NCBI GenBank assembly: GCA_028875055.1
Contig: JAPPGG010000072.1
Span: forward strand, 1 to 51,031
Direction of reading: 5' to 3'
From: Chloroflexota bacterium
GTDB lineage: Bacteria; Chloroflexota; Dehalococcoidia; Lucifugimonadales; UBA3495
DNA length: 51,031 bases
The position numbers and the translations under genes are program-made. Shown here piece after piece: positions 15,735-25,686 of this stretch. Positions within the stretch are counted from its first letter, which is position 1. Each line of letters begins with the position of its first letter. The notes below the pieces were generated by a model. That model was given only the letters and a program-made list of their open reading frames with translations. It did not search any database and was not told the DNA's origin.

Positions 15735-17576
15735 CTACAGGGACTCCGCCAGTACGGGTTTGATGGCCGCCACCAGGGCAGGAAGGTACTCTTCCCAGTC
15801 GCCAACGATTCCAACGTCCGCTGCCTTGAATATGGGATGGCGCCGGTTGCTGTTCAGGGCGATGATGACGCCGGCCTTTTGAATGCCCACCGTGTGGTCG
15901 AACACGCCGCGAATGCCCACGGCCAGGTAAACCCGCGGAGCGATGGTGCGGCCGCTGATGCCCACCTGCACCTGGTGGGGCAGCCAGCCCGCATGCACGA
16001 CATTGCGGGTGGTGGCCACGGTGGCGCCGATCTCAGTTGCCAGGGAGCGGACCCTGGGCAGGTTTTCCGGGCCACCGATGCCCATGCCGGCGCCCAGCAC
16101 AACTTCGGCCTGGGCCAGGGCGATGCCGCCCGGGTCGTCTTCAAAGTGAGTTTCAAGGATGGTGATGTCGTCTCCCTCGAAGGGATTGGCTGCCAGTTCC
16201 TCCAGCACGGCGGAGGCGTCCGCTTCCGGCTGGATGGGAGTCAACAGCCCGGGGCGCAGCGTTACCAGGTTCGGCAGCGTCTTGGACAGGATAGGCGCAA
16301 TGACATTGCCGCCCAGGGCCGGCTTGAGCTGCACCAGCCTTCCTTCGCCGTCAATCTCCAGGTCGATGGCGTCCCCGGTGAGCCCGAGGCCCAGGCGGGC
16401 GGCGATGCGGGAAGCCAGGTCGCGACCGTCGGCGGTGGCGGCAAAAAGCACGGCATAGGGACGCTCGGCGTCCAGGATGCCGGCCAGGGTATTGGCAACG
16501 CTCCGGCCGCACACAGGACCCAGGCTGGAGTTGTCCAGGGTGAGGACCCGGTCGGCTCCGTAAGCGGCCAGGGTTTCAACCGTGTCTGCGTCCGCTTCCC
16601 CGATGAGGACCGCCACCACCTGGCTGCGGGTGGTCTCGGTCAACTGGCGGGCTTTGCCCAGCAGCTCCAGGGTTACCCGCCTGAGGCCTGCCTGGGCGGT
16701 TTCCGCCACCACCCAGATGGCCCGGCCCTTTTCCTCCGGGTAGCGGGTGGCGTCAAGTGCAGAAGGTTGGTCGTCGGCCGGAGTGTCGGTGGATTCCAGG
16801 CCTTCCAGCAGTAACCGGACTACCTGCTGGGCGGCATCCTCCGGGGTCTGTTCCTCAATCATAATGCCCTGGCGGGTGGGCTCGACCAGGCGGATGTCTT
16901 CAACCCAGGTGGGGGAGCCTTCCAGTCCGAACTGGGACAAGTCTTCGGTCAACTGGCTGCAGGTCAGTTCCTCCACCGGCCTTTCCTGGGCCTCTGCCAT
17001 CTGCTGCCTGTTGGCAAAGGTCTCGGCGGCCACACCCTCCGTAACGCAGACCACCGCCGGCAAGGGGCACTCGATCACCTGGTAGCCCTCATCGGTGATG
17101 CGCTCCGCAACCACCGTGTTGGTGTCGGGGCGATAGTCCAGCTTTCTCACCTGGCTGATATGGGGCAATCCCAGGAGCTCGGCCAGTTCCGGCCCCACCT
17201 GCCCGGTTTCCGCGTCGCTGCTGTTGCGACCGCAGACGATAAGGTCGGGCTGCTCCCGCTGCAGCGCCAGGCCCAGCGCGCGGGCGGTCGCCAGGGTGTC
17301 AGAGCCGGCCAGGGCCCGGTCGGTAAGCAGAATGCCGCGGTCTGCGCCCAGGGCCATGCAGGTTACGAGGCCGTCCCGGGCCTGGGGTGGGCCCATGGAT
17401 ACGGCGACCACCTCGTCCCCCGGACCTGATTTCAACTCTACGGCGCGGACGAGGCCCAGGACGTCGAAGGGGTTTACCTCGGAGGGAACACCGTCCCTTA
17501 CGATGGTCTTCTTTTCGTAGTCGAAGGTTATTCGAGAGACGACGGGAACGTATTTGACACAGACGGCCGTCTTCAT
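15735..17576 (-). CDS. Single-chain electron transfer flavoprotein (EtfB-EtfA fusion)
   Basis: The 613-residue product joins two normally separate subunits. Residues 1-265 match EtfB, with 'MKTAVCVKYVP' at the start and the nucleotide motif 'DAETGQVGPELAELLG'. A linker of about 20 residues (DQPSALDATRYPEEK) follows. Residues 285-613 match EtfA: domain I, then the FAD domain with 'GAGMGIGGPENLPRVRSLA' and 'AVGIRGVFDHTVGIQKAGV', ending 'PIFKAADVGIVGDWEEYLPAL'. ETF carries electrons from acyl-CoA dehydrogenases to the quinone pool. The C-terminal FAD loop reads 'VGISGRTIAP' where most EtfA proteins have VGQTGK. It lies between the acyl-CoA dehydrogenase operon and pncB, all on one strand. Confidence 0.92.
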   Translation of the reverse strand: MKTAVCVKYVPVVSRITFDYEKKTIVRDGVPSEVNPFDVLGLVRAVELKSGPGDEVVAVSMGPPQARDGLVTCMALGADRGILLTDRALAGSDTLATARALGLALQREQPDLIVCGRNSSDAETGQVGPELAELLGLPHISQVRKLDYRPDTNTVVAERITDEGYQVIECPLPAVVCVTEGVAAETFANRQQMAEAQERPVEELTCSQLTEDLSQFGLEGSPTWVEDIRLVEPTRQGIMIEEQTPEDAAQQVVRLLLEGLESTDTPADDQPSALDATRYPEEKGRAIWVVAETAQAGLRRVTLELLGKARQLTETTRSQVVAVLIGEADADTVETLAAYGADRVLTLDNSSLGPVCGRSVANTLAGILDAERPYAVLFAATADGRDLASRIAARLGLGLTGDAIDLEIDGEGRLVQLKPALGGNVIAPILSKTLPNLVTLRPGLLTPIQPEADASAVLEELAANPFEGDDITILETHFEDDPGGIALAQAEVVLGAGMGIGGPENLPRVRSLATEIGATVATTRNVVHAGWLPHQVQVGISGRTIAPRVYLAVGIRGVFDHTVGIQKAGVIIALNSNRRHPIFKAADVGIVGDWEEYLPALVAAIKPVLAESL

Positions 17577-17629: not shown

Positions 17630-19015
17630 TCAGTCTTCAGCGACTCCCTGCTGTTCCATGAGGCTGCCCTGGACCTGGCTGGTCAGGCGCTGCAGGGCCG
17701 GGCTCAGGGTAACCGGATAGCGGGGTGGGCTTACTATTTGCTTGAAGTGGTCTTCCAGGCAGGCAAAGTCGGCAGTGAACCGGTCGCGCATATCAGAGAG
17801 GGCGGGTTCGGGCCGCGTCTTCTTCCCTGCCTCCATGACCGTCTGCAAAAGCCGCTCCCCGGCAGGTAGCTGCTCATCCTGCAGGGTGACCACGTCCCTT
17901 TCGAAACAGCCATTTCCATCCCTTAGCCGGTAAACCTGCTTGGCGCCGGGGGGTGATATCTTGTCGGTGCTGAGTTTCATAACCGGCCGGCCGTCGTAGC
18001 AGGACAGCTTGTAGGACATGTCGGTGTAGGGGGCGTCGGCGGAAGTACCAACCCTGGTCCCCACACCGAAAATGTCGATGGGCGCTCCCGACCGGACAAG
18101 TTTGTGAATCTCATACTCGTCCAGCCCGCCGCTGGCGACGATTTGCACGTAGGGCAGGCCGGCGTGGTCCAGTATTTGACGCACCTGGCGGCTCAGTTCG
18201 CCGTAATCCCCGGAATCCAACCGGACGCCTACCAGGCGATGGCCGTCGTTCTCCATTTCCCGGCCCACCTGGGCGGCGTTGCGCGCCCCCTCGATGGTGT
18301 CGTAGGTGTCCAGCAGCAAGATAGTGCGCTGAGGGAAGGCTCCGGCATAGGCGCGGAAGGCTTCCAACTCGGTGGGGAAGGAAGTGATCATGGAGTGGGC
18401 CATGGTTCCGGCCGGCGGAATTCCGTACCGCCGGGCCGCAAGCACGTTGCTGGTGGACTGGAATCCGGCGATGTACCCGGAGCGGGCCATGGTCAATGCT
18501 CCGTCCACACCCGGGGCGCGGCGGGCCCCAAAGTCTGAGAGAACCCGGCCCTGTGCCGCCCAGAAGCAGCGTGCTGCCTTGGTGGCCTGGAGGCTCTGAA
18601 GGTTCAGGCGATTGATTATAAGGGTCTCCACCAACTGGGCTTCGATTACAGGGGCGGTTACTTCCAGGATGGGCTCGTTGGCAAAAAAGATACGTCCCTC
18701 CGGCAGGGCGCGCACACTGCCGGTAAACCGCAAGTCTCCCAGGTAGTCCAGGAAGTCAGGGGTAAACATGCCGGTTTCGCTGAGGTATTGCCGGGCGCCG
18801 TCGCCGAAGCTGACGCCCTGAAGGAAGTCCAGGGTGTCCTCCAGCCCGGCGCACACCATGTAGCCGCGATCGGGCGGGTAACTCCGGATGAAGAGATCGA
18901 AAGTGGCTTCGGCCGTCATTGCCTGGGCAAAATAGGTCTGGGCCATGGTCAACTCGTACAGGTCGGTGAACAGGCCCAGGTCGGCGCGGGTCGTGTGGTA
19001 TGCCCTCTGGTTCAT
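17630..19015 (-). CDS. pncB: Nicotinate phosphoribosyltransferase
   Basis: The product (461 residues from ATG 19015) makes nicotinate mononucleotide from nicotinate and PRPP in NAD salvage. 'LGLFTDLYELTMAQTYF' is the diagnostic N-terminus. 'GIPPAGTMAHSMITSF' carries the conserved His region, and 'VGVRLDSGDYGEL' with 'GVGTRVGTSADAPY' form the phosphate-binding parts. The longer frame to 19273 runs through the promoter at 19067-19096, so ATG 19015 is the better start even though its Shine-Dalgarno is weak. The ETF gene follows after a 53-base gap and may be read from the same transcript. Confidence 0.92.
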   Translation of the reverse strand: MNQRAYHTTRADLGLFTDLYELTMAQTYFAQAMTAEATFDLFIRSYPPDRGYMVCAGLEDTLDFLQGVSFGDGARQYLSETGMFTPDFLDYLGDLRFTGSVRALPEGRIFFANEPILEVTAPVIEAQLVETLIINRLNLQSLQATKAARCFWAAQGRVLSDFGARRAPGVDGALTMARSGYIAGFQSTSNVLAARRYGIPPAGTMAHSMITSFPTELEAFRAYAGAFPQRTILLLDTYDTIEGARNAAQVGREMENDGHRLVGVRLDSGDYGELSRQVRQILDHAGLPYVQIVASGGLDEYEIHKLVRSGAPIDIFGVGTRVGTSADAPYTDMSYKLSCYDGRPVMKLSTDKISPPGAKQVYRLRDGNGCFERDVVTLQDEQLPAGERLLQTVMEAGKKTRPEPALSDMRDRFTADFACLEDHFKQIVSPPRYPVTLSPALQRLTSQVQGSLMEQQGVAED

Positions 19016-19066
19016 TTTATTGCCATTCAGGCGATGGAAAGGCAGGTTTGAGCCCTGTTTCGGGCT

Positions 19067-19096
19067 ATTATGTTTGGGCCCTCCCAGGTATGTCAA
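19067..19096 (-). promoter_or_regulatory. Sigma70-type promoter for pncB
   Basis: On the minus strand TTGACA (complement of 19091-19096), 18 bases, CATAAT (complement of 19067-19072). The start would lie near 19060, 45 bases before ATG 19015. The match to consensus is strong. Confidence 0.65.
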
Positions 19097-19266
19097 ACGG
19101 TTTGCCCTCGAAGGAGGGGCGTCGCCCAGCCCGGGCTGGTGGCCGGATGGGGCCCGTTCCTCAATCCTGACCGACAGAGGCGTATGTTTGATTGATTCAG
19201 GTGAATTTGTTGCGATATTCGTAATGAAACAAGGTCCGCAGCCTTGACATAGTGCATTGGCGGCAT

Positions 19267-19295
19267 TTGACACTGGTGCCGTCCTTGTTTATTAT
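19267..19295 (+). promoter_or_regulatory. Sigma70-type promoter for the SAM-riboswitch transcript
   Basis: TTGACA (19267-19272), 17 bases, TATTAT (19290-19295). Transcription would begin near 19302, about 40 bases before the riboswitch core. A second TTGACA lies at 19244-19249 without a matching -10. Confidence 0.75.
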
Positions 19296-19339
19296 AGCCC
19301 TGCGCAAATGGCTTAAAAACTTAATACTAATATCTGGGA

Positions 19340-19468
19340 CCCTTATCCAGATCGGCAGAGGGAACGGCCCGATGAAGCCAGGCAACCGGCCCCGGTGGCA
19401 GCGCCGCCAGGGGCGAGGTGCTAAATCCGGCCTCTCCCCGGTTTTGTGGGGAAGAGGAAAGATGAGGG
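19340..19468 (+). ncRNA. SAM-I (S-box) riboswitch
   Basis: This is the aptamer of the S-adenosylmethionine riboswitch. The conserved core is present in order: CTTATC at 19342-19347, GAGGGAACGGCCCGATGAAG (about 19358-19377), CCAGGCAACCGG, then GGTGCTAAATCC, which supplies the P4/J4-1 region. P1 closes with CCCTTATC (19340-19347) against GATGAGGG (19461-19468), 8 bp with one G-T. High SAM should stabilise P1 and allow the terminator at 19488-19513 to form. It precedes mtnA, which fits sulfur/SAM homeostasis. Confidence 0.95.
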
Positions 19469-19487
19469 AGCGGAACTACATTTCTGT

Positions 19488-19513
19488 GCTTCTCTCAACG
19501 GGAAGCTTTTTTT
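19488..19513 (+). terminator. Riboswitch-controlled intrinsic terminator
   Basis: GCTTCTC (19488-19494) pairs with GGGAAGC (19500-19506) around a 5-base loop and is followed by seven T. The 3' strand of P1 (GAGGGAG, 19464-19470) can instead pair with TTCTCTC (19490-19496), making a mutually exclusive antiterminator. This is the usual SAM-I off-switch. Confidence 0.88.
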
Positions 19514-19545
19514 ATGCCCGGAATTATCCGGGGGAGTAACCGGCC

Positions 19546-20601
19546 TTGAACGAAATTCGCCCGATACTGTGGGACGACGGAACCCTGAAACTTCTTGACC
19601 AGACCAGGCTGCCGGCAGAAGAGGTGGTGGTCGAAATCAACGACTATCGCGGCGCCGTGGCCGCCATCCGGGATATGCAGGTGCGCGGGGCTCCCGCCAT
19701 CGGAGTGACTGCCGCATATGCCGTGGTGATGGCGGCAACCGAACTGGCCACCACTGACCATGTCAGCGTTGACCGGGCCAGTTTTCTGGCTGCCCTCAGG
19801 GAGGCGGGAACGGTGATCAACGCCGCCCGTCCCACGGCCGTCAACCTGCAGTGGGCCGTCCGCCGGATGCTGGAAGTAGCGGAGTCGGAGCCGGACCTGT
19901 CGCAGGTGAACCATCGGCTGCTGGCTGAAGCCAAAGGCATCCAGGTTGAGGACGAAGAGATCAACCGGCGGATGGGAGACAACGGCAAGGAGCTGATGCC
20001 CGAGGGCGGCGCCGTGCTGACCCATTGCAACACCGGGGCGTTGGCTACCTCCGCTTTCGGGACGGCCCTGGGCGTCATCCGGGCCGGCTGGGAGTCGGGA
20101 CGCCGGTTCCAGGTGTTCAACACCGAGACCCGCCCCTTCCTGCAGGGCGCGCGCCTTACTTCCTGGGAGTTCCAGCAGCTGGGGATTCCCGCGACGCTGA
20201 TCGTGGATTCCGCAGCGGGGATAATGATGCAGCACGGTGAGATCAGCTGTGTGATTACCGGCGCAGACCGGATTGCGGCCAACGGGGACACCGCCAACAA
20301 GATTGGCACCTATTCGCTGGCCGTGCTGGCCCGGGAGAATGGCATTCCCTTCTACGTTGCCGCTCCTACCAGCACCGTGGACCTGAGCCTGGACACCGGC
20401 GAGGATATTGAAATCGAGCAGCGGGCGGGGTCCGAAGTTACCCACTTCCAGGGAACGCCCACGGCGCCAGTGGGAGTAGAAGCGTTGAACCCGGCATTTG
20501 ACGTGACGCCCCATCGTTACATAACCGCTATCGTCACGGAGAACGGCGTGGCCCGCGCTCCCTTCGTGGAGAGCCTGAAACTGGCGACAGGAAATTCCTG
20601 A
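19546..20601 (+). CDS. mtnA: S-methyl-5-thioribose-1-phosphate isomerase
   Basis: MtnA converts methylthioribose-1-phosphate to the ribulose form in methylthioadenosine recycling. The 351-residue product has 'MQVRGAPAIGVTAAYAV' for phosphate binding. Catalytic Cys161 lies in 'THCNTGALAT' and Asp241 in 'TGADRIAANGDTANKIGTY', both at the positions seen in Bacillus MtnA. The start is TTG 19546; GGGGGAG lies about 10 bases upstream. It is the first gene after the SAM-I riboswitch terminator, so it is the direct target of SAM control. No mtnB, mtnC or mtnD gene is in the window, so the later fate of the product is open. Confidence 0.93.
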   Translation: MNEIRPILWDDGTLKLLDQTRLPAEEVVVEINDYRGAVAAIRDMQVRGAPAIGVTAAYAVVMAATELATTDHVSVDRASFLAALREAGTVINAARPTAVNLQWAVRRMLEVAESEPDLSQVNHRLLAEAKGIQVEDEEINRRMGDNGKELMPEGGAVLTHCNTGALATSAFGTALGVIRAGWESGRRFQVFNTETRPFLQGARLTSWEFQQLGIPATLIVDSAAGIMMQHGEISCVITGADRIAANGDTANKIGTYSLAVLARENGIPFYVAAPTSTVDLSLDTGEDIEIEQRAGSEVTHFQGTPTAPVGVEALNPAFDVTPHRYITAIVTENGVARAPFVESLKLATGNS

Positions 20602-20641
20602 TGTTCCAGCTGAATCATTTACGGCAAGGATGTACGCACAT

Positions 20642-21733
20642 ATGACTGCTTCCGACCAGCAAACCCGCCGGCGCATGGCCCGCACCGGCCTGACCGTTTA
20701 CGACCCGGACAAGGCCTGCGAGGGGTATCTTCTCTATGCCCCCATGGCGGGCGGCGGCGAAGTTTACCTGGTGGACAATAACGGCCAGGAAGCGCACCGC
20801 TGGAACCTGCCGCATCCACCGGGCTTGTACGGTTACCTGCTGCCCAACGGCAACCTGTTTTACGGCGGCAAGACGCGGGACGAGACCTGGGACCGGTTCC
20901 CCTCCTGGAAGCGGTTCAAGGGCGGCGTGATGCTGGAGGCCGACTGGAACGGAAACGTGGTATGGGAACACGCTGACTCCGACCACCACCACGACGCCCG
21001 GCGCACCCCGGAGGGAGGAGCGCTGTATATGACCGTGGAGCTTATGGATCCGGCCCTGGTTTCCCGGGTCAAGGGAGGCGTGCCGGGAACCGATGCCGAG
21101 GGCATGTGGGCGGACGTGCTGGTGGAAGTGGACAGCTCCGGCAACCGGGTCTGGGAATGGCATGCCGCCGAGCATCTGGACCCGGAGCGGCACGTCATTA
21201 CGTTCAATGACCTGAGGGACGAGTGGAGCCACGGCAACACGGTGGCGCCCCTGGACGGCGACCGGGTGATGTTCAGCTTCCGCAACATCTCCACGGTGGG
21301 AATAATAGACAAGAGGTCCGGCGAAATTGTCTGGCAACTGGGGGACACGGTGCTGGCGCAACAGCATGACCCGAACCTGCTGCCCAATGGAAACGTGCTG
21401 ATTTACGACAACGGTTCGCACCGGAAGAACGTCGGCCTGCCTTTTTCGCGGGTGCTGGAGGTAAATCCGGCCAGCAATGAGATCGTCTGGCAGTACCAGG
21501 ACTCGCCGCCGTACAACTTTTTCAGTCCCTACATTTCGGGCGCCCGGCGGCTGCCCAACGGCAATACCTTGATCACCGAGGGCATGTTTGGCCGGATGTT
21601 CCAGGTCACGGCCAAGGGCGAGGTGGTCTGGGAGTATATCAACCCCTACTTCTACGAAGATGCCGAGGGGCAGGTGGTAAACCGGGTGTTCCGTTCGACC
21701 TTCTGCACACCGGACCAGGTACCCAACCTGTAG
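20642..21733 (+). CDS. Arylsulfotransferase-fold (ASST-like) beta-propeller protein
   Basis: The 363-residue product (367 residues if ATG 20630 is used) has repeats of the 'GNVVWEHADSDHHHDA', 'GNRVWEW' and 'GEIVWQLGD' type, plus 'LPNGNVLIYDNG' blades. This is the arylsulfotransferase (ArnS/ASST) propeller pattern, and the His-rich segment HADSDHHHD matches its conserved region. No signal peptide is visible, so it is probably cytoplasmic. ATG 20642 is preferred because AAGGA ends 11 bases before it, while 20630 overlaps that site. It lies 40 bases behind mtnA and 8 bases before the next gene, so it belongs to the riboswitch transcript. Its link to methylthioadenosine recycling is not known. 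Confidence 0.82.
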   Translation: MTASDQQTRRRMARTGLTVYDPDKACEGYLLYAPMAGGGEVYLVDNNGQEAHRWNLPHPPGLYGYLLPNGNLFYGGKTRDETWDRFPSWKRFKGGVMLEADWNGNVVWEHADSDHHHDARRTPEGGALYMTVELMDPALVSRVKGGVPGTDAEGMWADVLVEVDSSGNRVWEWHAAEHLDPERHVITFNDLRDEWSHGNTVAPLDGDRVMFSFRNISTVGIIDKRSGEIVWQLGDTVLAQQHDPNLLPNGNVLIYDNGSHRKNVGLPFSRVLEVNPASNEIVWQYQDSPPYNFFSPYISGARRLPNGNTLITEGMFGRMFQVTAKGEVVWEYINPYFYEDAEGQVVNRVFRSTFCTPDQVPNL

Positions 21734-21741
21734 GAGCGGGC

Positions 21742-22611
21742 ATGGCTGACCAGGGAGCAACTATAGGCGTAATTGGCGGCAGTGGCCTTTACGACATGGA
21801 GGGCATGACCCACGTCGATTACATTGACGTGGACACCCCCTTCGGCCGGCCCAGCGACAGCGTCGTGGTAGGGACGCTGGAAGGGGTGCGGGTGGCTTTC
21901 CTGCCCCGACACGGACGGGGGCACCGGATTAATCCCACGGGAATTCCGGCCCGGGCCAACATCTACGCCATGAAGGTTCTGGGAGTCCGGCGGCTGGTGT
22001 CAGTCAGCGCCGTCGGCAGCCTCAAGGAGGAGTTTGCCCCCCTGGACCTGGTGGTTCCAGACCAGATAATTGACCGGACCAGGCAGCGGGTCAATACCTT
22101 CTTTGATGAGGGCATTGTTGCTCACGTCGGGTTCGCCGAGCCCTTCTGTCCCGAGGCCAGCCAGGTTATTGAGGGCGCGGGCCGGGAAGTGGGCGTCAAT
22201 ACCCACATGGGCGGGACGATGGTCGTCATGGAGGGCCCCGCCTTCTCGACCAGAGCCGAGTCGCACATGTATCGGTCCTGGGGCGCGGGAATAATTGGCA
22301 TGACCGCATTGCCCGAGGCCAAGCTGGCGCGGGAAGCGGAGATGTGCTACGCCACCATGGCCTGGATAACCGACTACGATTGCTGGCACGAGTCTGAAGA
22401 GACGGTGACGGTGGAAATGGTGGTGCAGAACCTGCTGCACAATGTGGCCCACTCCAAGGAGATGCTGCGGCTGGTAATCCCCCGAATGGGGGCGGCCCAC
22501 TCGTGCGGCTGCAATGCGGCGTTGAAGGACGCCATCATTACGGACCCGCGGGGAATTTCGGAAGAGACCAAGCACAAGCTGTCCCCCATCGTGGGACGCT
22601 ACATCAGCTAG
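21742..22611 (+). CDS. mtnP: S-methyl-5'-thioadenosine phosphorylase
   Basis: The 289-residue product belongs to the MTA/purine nucleoside phosphorylase family: 'IGVIGGSGLYDMEGM' at the start, 'PRHGRGHRINPTGIPARANI' for phosphate, and 'EGPAFSTRAESHMYRSWGA' plus 'DYDCWHES' for substrate. It splits methylthioadenosine with phosphate, giving adenine and the methylthioribose-1-phosphate that MtnA uses. It starts 8 bases after the preceding stop with a TAGGAG site. Residues that separate MTA from purine nucleoside phosphorylases were not checked, so a role on other 6-aminopurine nucleosides is possible. Context favours MTA. Confidence 0.9.
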   Translation: MADQGATIGVIGGSGLYDMEGMTHVDYIDVDTPFGRPSDSVVVGTLEGVRVAFLPRHGRGHRINPTGIPARANIYAMKVLGVRRLVSVSAVGSLKEEFAPLDLVVPDQIIDRTRQRVNTFFDEGIVAHVGFAEPFCPEASQVIEGAGREVGVNTHMGGTMVVMEGPAFSTRAESHMYRSWGAGIIGMTALPEAKLAREAEMCYATMAWITDYDCWHESEETVTVEMVVQNLLHNVAHSKEMLRLVIPRMGAAHSCGCNAALKDAIITDPRGISEETKHKLSPIVGRYIS

Positions 22612-22674
22612 GCAGAAGTTGACCGGCTGAAATCTGGGTGAACAGGGTTTTCATCAGGTAAGGAGGTAATGATC

Positions 22675-23031
22675 ATGCCCAGGCAGGAACCCGGCGAGCC
22701 TTATTTCCGGGTAGATTCCAACGAAGCCAGTTCCATCCTCAACGAGGATGCGGAAGGCGCCGTCGTGGTGGACGTCCGCCGCGATGACGAATGGGAGACC
22801 GGTCATATAACCGGCGCCGTTCACATTCCCATAGACGACCTGCCGGACCGTATAGGCGAGGTGCCCCGGGACAAGAAGGTGCTGTTCATATGCGCCATGG
22901 GCGTCCGCAGCGGCCTGGCCTGCGAAGTGGCTTTCTCCATGGGATACGAAACGGACAACCTTTACAACATTGACGATGGCACTCCGGCCTGGATTGCCGC
23001 GGGTCTCCCGACGACATTCCCGGGCCGGTAG
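22675..23031 (+). CDS. Rhodanese-domain sulfurtransferase
   Basis: The 118-residue single rhodanese domain has 'VVVDVRRDDEWETGHITGAVHIP', read as two pieces (VVVDVRRDDEW, GHITGAVHIP), and the active loop CAMGVR with Cys73. Such proteins carry persulfide sulfur from thiosulfate or cysteine. ATG 22675 is preferred because AGGAGG (22661-22666) is 8 bases upstream; ATG 22669 is too close. It sits between mtnP and ahcY in the SAM-cycle cluster, which suggests a role in sulfur transfer linked to methionine or cysteine metabolism. Confidence 0.88.
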   Translation: MPRQEPGEPYFRVDSNEASSILNEDAEGAVVVDVRRDDEWETGHITGAVHIPIDDLPDRIGEVPRDKKVLFICAMGVRSGLACEVAFSMGYETDNLYNIDDGTPAWIAAGLPTTFPGR

Positions 23032-23074: not shown

Positions 23075-24349
<1,275 letters not shown>

Positions 24350-24390: not shown

Positions 24391-24445
24391 GTGGCGTCTC
24401 CGTAGCAGGCCTTATCATTGCCGGACTGCACCGCAGAGGCGCCAC
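24391..24445 (+). promoter_or_regulatory. Structured metK leader, candidate cis-regulatory RNA
   Basis: GTGGCGTCTC (24391-24400) pairs with GAGGCGCCAC (24436-24445), 10 bp with one G-T pair. Inside is a second hairpin, GCAG (24405-24408) with CTGC (24426-24429), extended by CC/GG across a mismatch. Internal-loop bases CGTA and ACCGCA remain. The helix ends 10 bases before the Shine-Dalgarno GGAGG (24456-24460), and no T tract follows. I do not match it to a known SAM, SAH or other riboswitch, so it is a candidate only. Confidence 0.4.
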
Positions 24446-24468
24446 CCAGGAAAATGGAGGATAAACCT

Positions 24469-25686
24469 ATGCCGATACAATTTATGACTTCCCCCAAGTA
24501 CCTTCTGACATCCGAGTCGGTAACCGAGGGTCATCCCGACAAGCTATGCGACCAGATTTCCGACGCGGTTCTGGATGCCGCCCTTTCCGGCGACAACATG
24601 AGCCGGGTAGCCTGTGAGACCGTGGCCACCAAGAACCTGGTCATGGTCACCGGCGAAATTACCACCGGCTCGGACCTGGACTTCAATGAAATCGCCCGCA
24701 CGGTAATGCAGGACATCGGCTATACCGATGTGAAGTACGGCCTGGACGGCAACTCCTGTGGCGTGGTGGCCCACGTCAGCAAGCAGTCCCCCGACATCAG
24801 CAGTGGCGTTACCACCTCGCTGGAGCACCGGGGCGACGCGGAGGCGGACGCCCGCCGGGCGACCGGAGCCGGGGACCAGGGTATGATGGTCGGATTCGCC
24901 TGCAACGAGACCGAGGGTCTCATGCCCCTCACCGTTGATCTCTCTCACCGCCTGGTGGAGAGGCTCTCAAGGGTACGCAAGGATGGGGTTCTTCCTTACC
25001 TGGGCCCCGACGGAAAGTCGCAGGTAACCGTTGAATACCGGCACGGTCGCCCCCACCGGGTGGACGCGGTGGTAATCAGCACCCAGCACGAGGACCAGGA
25101 CGACCGTGAGGCCTTCACCAAGCGGCTGCGCAAGGATATAAAGGAGCACGTAATCGATCCCATCGCCGGCGAACTGATGGATGACGACACCAACATTTAC
25201 GTGAATCCCAGCGGCTGGTTCGTGGTTGGCGGTCCTCAGGGCGATACGGGCTTGACGGGCCGCAAGATCCTGGTGGATACCTACGGCGGAATCGCCCGCC
25301 ACGGCGGCGGCGCCTTCTCGGGCAAGGACCCCACGAAGGTTGACCGCTCCGGCGCCTACGCGGCTCGCTATGTGGCCAAGAACCTGGTGGCCGCCGGCCT
25401 GGCGGACCGGGTGGAGGTCATTGTCTCTTACGCCATTGGCGTTGCCGAACCCATATCGGTTTCGGTGGAGACCTTTGACACCAACCACCTGGACAACGAC
25501 AAGATAGAGGAACTGGTCCGTGACAACTTCGACCTTCGCCCCGGCGCGATCATCGAAGACCTCAACCTGCGGCAGCCCATTTACCGCAATACGGCCGCCT
25601 ACGGGCACTTTGGCCGCACCGATGTGGACCTGCCCTGGGAGCGGACCGACAAGGCGGATATGCTGCGGAAGAAGGCCGGCCTTTAG
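24469..25686 (+). CDS. metK: S-adenosylmethionine synthetase
   Basis: MetK makes SAM from methionine and ATP. The product (405 residues from ATG 24469) has '[20 protein letters not shown]', the ATP motif '[15 protein letters not shown]', and the glycine loop '[17 protein letters not shown]' that holds the triphosphate. ATG 24469 has GGAGG at 24456-24460; the frame can extend to 24418 but would include the structured leader. It is the last methyl-cycle gene of the cluster. Confidence 0.96.

Follow-up and report, generated by a model that had tools for sequence, protein, structure and literature searches.

In the 51,031-nt stretch of DNA analysed here (the window), which comes from Chloroflexota of the class Dehalococcoidia, perhaps of SAR202 type, the leader RNA ahead of mtnA is, judged by its sequence, a genuine and widely conserved SAM-I riboswitch, a member of that class by every testable feature. 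It very probably acts as a transcriptional OFF switch (S-box) for an operon of the SAM cycle and MTA salvage. The aptamer family, the terminator, the competing pairing, their conservation and the gene order all come directly out of computation, and the switch as such is ordinary, well supported and of an already known kind. Its significance lies in its setting: one SAM sensor heads an operon that makes SAM (metK) and clears by-products (ahcY, mtnP, and mtnA), and both sensor and operon arrangement have been kept across a family of Dehalococcoidia.

A cmscan search of the whole window returned a match to RF00162 at 19340-19468 on the forward strand, with a score of 73.5 bits (E 1.9e-15; gathering cut-off 44.4 bits) and an alignment over the full model length, from the first to the last position (model 1-108). 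The first-pass annotation had called a SAM-I aptamer with P1 at 19340-19347/19461-19468; the covariance model bears out the assignment, and its match ends exactly at the outer edges of this helix, in which all eight pairs are standard (one is U-G). The alignment further contains the four-helix junction (P1-P4) with its conserved core letters, and the strongly conserved letters of the model are retained, among them the AGA of J1/2 and, in P3, the segments AGGUGC..AA.UCC. In an alignment of 27 relatives, P3 and P4 covary. The aptamer occupies a leader position ahead of genes of methionine and SAM metabolism (mtnA, mtnP, ahcY, and metK) and is followed by a terminator and an antiterminator, an expression platform predicted to be exclusive with P1. 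From the sequence we infer that SAM is the ligand.

The window's match is the only one in its own genome (whole-genome scan). Exactly one match is likewise present in 42 of 50 family genomes and lies directly upstream of mtnA in all 42, which supports both the SAM-I assignment and the earlier proposal of mtnA as the target. In the order, 110 of 250 genomes carry a match, and outside the own family 44 of the 68 matches over the cut-off sit 57-223 nt upstream of mtnA. SAM riboswitches have been reported in Chloroflexi before (PMC3766115). With other SAM-I (S-box, RF00162) riboswitches, the present one shares a full-model four-helix aptamer, a terminator-type platform, a P1 serving as anti-antiterminator, and SAM/methionine genes downstream; it differs in its host (Chloroflexota), in being a single copy that heads a whole MTA-salvage and SAM-cycle operon, and in an extra 5′ hairpin and leader motif. 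In Bacillus subtilis, the mtn operons have S-box leaders, by which SAM-I controls methionine-salvage genes including mtnA. The placement of SAM-I ahead of such genes is thus common to both, whereas the present operon continues from mtnA to mtnP, ahcY, and metK, in a genome where no PF03079 protein was found.

Transcription of the leader can be assigned to a sigma-70-type promoter on the forward strand, with TTGACA at 19267-19272, a 17-nt spacer, and TATTAT at 19290-19295. This promoter, already proposed in the first-pass annotation, was recovered by the consensus scan, fitting the consensus at 11 of 12 positions in a scan that gave seven promoter-like sites in 7.5 kb (1.8 expected). TTGACA with a spacer of 16-18 nt is kept in nearly all of 70 related leaders. 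At the other end of the leader, the same kind of scan found the claimed intrinsic terminator at 19488-19513 (+), consisting of a stem (19488-19494/19500-19506) and a T7 run (19507-19513). It is modest, with seven pairs and -8.1 kcal/mol. It is conserved: the seven pairs are intact in 27 of 27 aligned relatives, where changes are one-sided only, and each of the 41 family leaders examined has a terminator following the aptamer.

The competing structure emerges when the window's leader is folded (RNAfold, from an assumed +1 at 19303) with the 5′ strand of P1 blocked, upon which an antiterminator replaces both P1 and the terminator. This antiterminator (19463-19497, +) pairs 19463-19469 with 19491-19497 and 19470-19475 with 19482-19487 and excludes both of the other helices. 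The pairing originally drawn, 19464-19470 with 19490-19496, therefore stands in its register (with the P1 5′ strand unavailable) and falls short in its extent, as the predicted antiterminator is longer. In a nearest-neighbour energy model that takes no account of SAM, Mg2+, or the kinetics of transcription, the free ensemble of a transcript reaching 19497 lies at -81.0 kcal/mol versus -73.4 with P1 enforced (7.6 kcal/mol better), and for a transcript reaching 19513 the free ensemble is still 3.1 kcal/mol better than the P1-enforced one. Since the free ensemble is favoured, formation of the antiterminator is the prediction for the SAM-free RNA; the energy to keep P1 closed, and thereby to permit the terminator, would have to come from SAM binding. 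Across the family, 11 of 12 genera have a linker from P1 to the terminator that outperforms shuffled versions of itself in pairing (mean genus z -1.6), with g2 barely better (mean z -0.3) and g11 not at all. In one relative's leader (L044), the terminator persisted when P1 was blocked in constrained RNAfold, and the window's leader, folded as a whole, has a z-score of just -1.5. Taken together, the terminator in 41 of 41 leaders and the preference over shuffles in 11 of 12 genera argue for the transcription-termination mechanism put forward at the outset.

We infer the co-transcriptional timing and the direction of regulation from these structures, as follows. RNA polymerase would start a short way past 19295. 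At low SAM, the 3′ strand of P1 (19463-19468) and the linker would base-pair with the terminator's 5′ arm, and the antiterminator so formed would allow read-through into mtnA-ASST-mtnP-rhodanese-ahcY-metK. When SAM is bound, P1 (19340-19347/19461-19468) would be held closed, leaving the terminator 5′ arm free, so that the terminator (19488-19513) would form and transcription would end ahead of mtnA.

In this genus, the SAM-free RNA probably also sequesters the 5′ strand of P1 in a 5′ hairpin at 19332-19352 (+). The hairpin, absent from the first-pass annotation, is predicted by RNAfold to pair AUCUGGG (19332-19338) with UCCAGAU (19346-19352), which places the 5′ strand of P1 in its loop and 3′ arm. 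Enforcing six of its pairs gives an ensemble that differs by no more than 0.5 kcal/mol from the free one in the absence of SAM. It is found in genera g1, g2, g3, g5, g6, g8, g11, and part of g7, with a double change (CUGUA/UACAG) in genome G024, and is absent from the family leaders of g16, g13, g12, and g4. For the whole family the hairpin reaches -2.6 versus -0.8 for shuffles; its covariation is weak in the mixed family alignment. As a general feature of the order, such a 5′ anti-P1 hairpin was rejected (28 leaders, mean -0.9 kcal/mol versus -1.2 for shuffles). We take it as a lineage-specific refinement and not as a conserved part of the switch. It probably represents a SAM-free state unable to bind the ligand, comparable in concept to apoB of the add adenine riboswitch (PMC5847336), in which a ligand-free alternative pairing likewise yields a ligand-incompetent aptamer. 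The add riboswitch, however, is a translational ON switch of another class, whereas the 5′ hairpin here is only predicted.

Downstream of the leader, six genes follow on the forward strand: mtnA, encoding S-methyl-5-thioribose-1-phosphate isomerase (19546-20601, TTG start; TIGR00512, 433 bits); a gene for an arylsulfotransferase-like (ASST) protein (20630-21733; PF05935, E 2e-25); mtnP, S-methyl-5′-thioadenosine phosphorylase (21742-22611; TIGR01694, 322 bits); a gene for a rhodanese-domain protein (22669-23031; PF00581, E 5e-17); ahcY, adenosylhomocysteinase (23078-24349; TIGR00936, 625 bits); and metK, methionine adenosyltransferase (24418-25686; TIGR01034, 547 bits). A phosphomannomutase/phosphoglucomutase-type gene comes after metK. 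In all 39 family loci uncut by contig ends, the genes run mtnA-mtnP-rhodanese-ahcY-metK, the ASST-like gene being optional: it stands between mtnA and mtnP in g1, g2, g3, and g5 and is absent from the other family loci. Acireductone dioxygenase (PF03079) was not found in the window's own genome (G000), though mtnP and mtnA are present. As this genome does encode two Aldolase_II proteins, the carbon of MTA may take another route.

One alternative concerns how far control extends. The switch could act on mtnA alone, with mtnP to metK having their own promoters, and the spacing of 46-68 nt found in the window from mtnP through the rhodanese gene and ahcY to metK, as well as the much longer intergenic gaps of genus g2, would suit such a division. 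Nevertheless, consensus scans of the window gave no strong forward-strand promoter or terminator inside the operon, and the gene order is kept in all uncut family loci, often with gaps below 70 nt. We therefore consider control of mtnA alone unlikely, and the earlier suggestion of control probably up to metK is well supported.

Another possibility is that the switch acts mainly on mtnA translation. The probable mtnA ribosome-binding site, GGGGGAG (19530-19536, +), lies partly inside a small hairpin at 19517-19532 (CCCGG-AATTAT-CCGGG, pairing 19517-19521 with 19528-19532), and a hairpin is also present here in the minimum free energy fold. Yet this hairpin is located downstream of the terminator, is uncoupled from P1 in every fold made, and can be recognised by eye only in close relatives of this genus, while the terminator is present in all leaders examined; a mainly translational switch is thus very unlikely. 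Hardly more than a trace of probability goes to the third option, a SAM-I-like aptamer with a changed ligand, such as MTA or, as in published SAM-I variants, spermidine. MTA is a by-product of spermidine synthesis, and as a ligand it would suit an MTA-salvage operon in which the mtnA and mtnP products handle MTA and its derivatives. Spermidine-binding SAM-I variants do exist, with the same architecture and OFF switching by termination (predicted here), and what sets them apart lies in J1/2 and in the internal loop of P3 (PMC10853860). The present aptamer, on the other hand, keeps the conserved RF00162 letters at both places and scores far over the cut-off, and metK and ahcY in the same operon suit SAM. 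The altered SAM-contacting letters by which the variant is recognised were not found in J1/2 and the P3 internal loop, and the spermidine variant is rejected in part, in a comparison that covered the conserved letters. A SAM-responsive termination switch ahead of the whole operon hence remains our preferred reading.

Not all members of the family have retained the aptamer, as no RF00162 match was obtained in 8 of the 50 family genomes. In two of these eight the locus is truncated (in G027 the contig ends within the aptamer, and in G026 mtnA is cut), and in two others (G004 and G035) no mtnA was found. The remaining four, G048 and G049 of genus g17 and G033 and G034 of genus g14, retain mtnA, its TTGACA promoter, and a terminator of the GCTTCTC/GAGAAGC type, and have no aptamer (leaders L183 and L184 in g17; L185 and L186 in g14). 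The g17 leaders still contain GGGGGATAGGGTTTGG, similar to the stretch that forms the 3′ strand of P1 and the linker in other members (GATGAGGGGTTTGG in L044). Such leaders suggest that the aptamer was deleted and the terminator left behind. Genera with a terminator but without an aptamer offer a natural test of how useful attenuation is when there is no ligand to sense.

The least ordinary feature of this leader, likewise absent from the first-pass annotation, is a conserved transcribed element of 11 nt, AAAACTTAATA, at 19316-19326 (+), recognised by motif counts (consensus in the order ACAAYTGAATA, or ACAAYUGAAUA as RNA). It stands between the -10 box and the aptamer in most SAM-I leaders of the order, at varying distances to both. 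In other families of the order, 21 of 28 SAM-I leaders agree with it at 10 or all 11 positions (shuffles, 0.3), and in the own family 21 of 42 carry it (0.5 in shuffles); the allowed letters were drawn from these same leaders, so that the SAM-I counts are not independent. In the 60 nt past the aptamer, taken as a 3′ control, it occurs in none of the 28 leaders from other families. Leaders of other riboswitch classes are independent sets: the element is present in 12 of 30 cobalamin leaders (0.8 expected; 3′ control 0/30) and in 8 of 30 TPP leaders (0.5 expected), the latter signal being weak, since the 3′ control also gives 4 of 30. In other Chloroflexota classes the element is partly present in SAM-I leaders, with one exact copy. 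At the loci concerned (19316-19326 in the window; L153-L180, L204, L245, L247, L260-L289, and L290-L319), the element is shared by SAM-I and cobalamin leaders and, weakly, by TPP leaders. A combined search for promoter and element in 147 genomes of the order gave 16 matches, 15 of them SAM-I leaders and the last a leader upstream of a putative threonine synthase gene; reversing the pattern gave none. This last leader (L204:1501-1700) contains the element, a terminator, and a SAM-I/IV match that stays below threshold (34.3 bits against 41.1). The exact 11-mer was also counted in ten genomes selected for having the element in their SAM-I leaders, where it occurs 26 times and the reversed pattern once; 10 of the 26 precede SAM-I aptamers and 4 are at the edge of a cobalamin aptamer.

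Several explanations of the element were set aside. It is not part of the Rfam cobalamin model, the 5′ edge of which reads uauaauua; its distance to the -10 box is too variable for a promoter part; and a general 5′-UTR feature is unlikely, as 10 of the 26 exact matches in the ten genomes precede SAM-I aptamers and 4 precede cobalamin aptamers. Our best guess is a site read in early elongation. More broadly, we tentatively raise the possibility, in our estimation somewhat doubtful, that Chloroflexota riboswitch leaders of unrelated classes share a 5′ element between promoter and aptamer that acts in early elongation independently of the ligand, for example as a site for an elongation or RNA-binding factor aiding leader folding or termination. 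If functional, it would be a leader part independent of riboswitch class and outside the aptamer models. In the open-licence literature we found no account of this leader element or of the Dehalococcoidia operon, and nothing direct on a SAM riboswitch with mtnA, on Dehalococcoides, or on leader elements in Chloroflexi.

Finally, some neighbouring genes of the window deserve a short mention. A nicotinate phosphoribosyltransferase gene diverges from the operon (17630-19273, -). Its family match begins only near residue 93, so its true start is probably near 19000, and a promoter-like site lies on the reverse strand at 19096-19067. The region at 28-49 kb was suspected to be a prophage, given its many short minus-strand open reading frames, and turned out to be the ribosomal-protein, secY, and rpoA cluster; this cluster (29583-50429, -) also includes EF-G, a methionine aminopeptidase-type gene, and a tRNA pseudouridine synthase gene. 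On the other side of the operon, a single open reading frame (15735-17576, -) combines two electron-transfer flavoprotein domains, beta-type then alpha-type, and adjoins acyl-CoA dehydrogenases.
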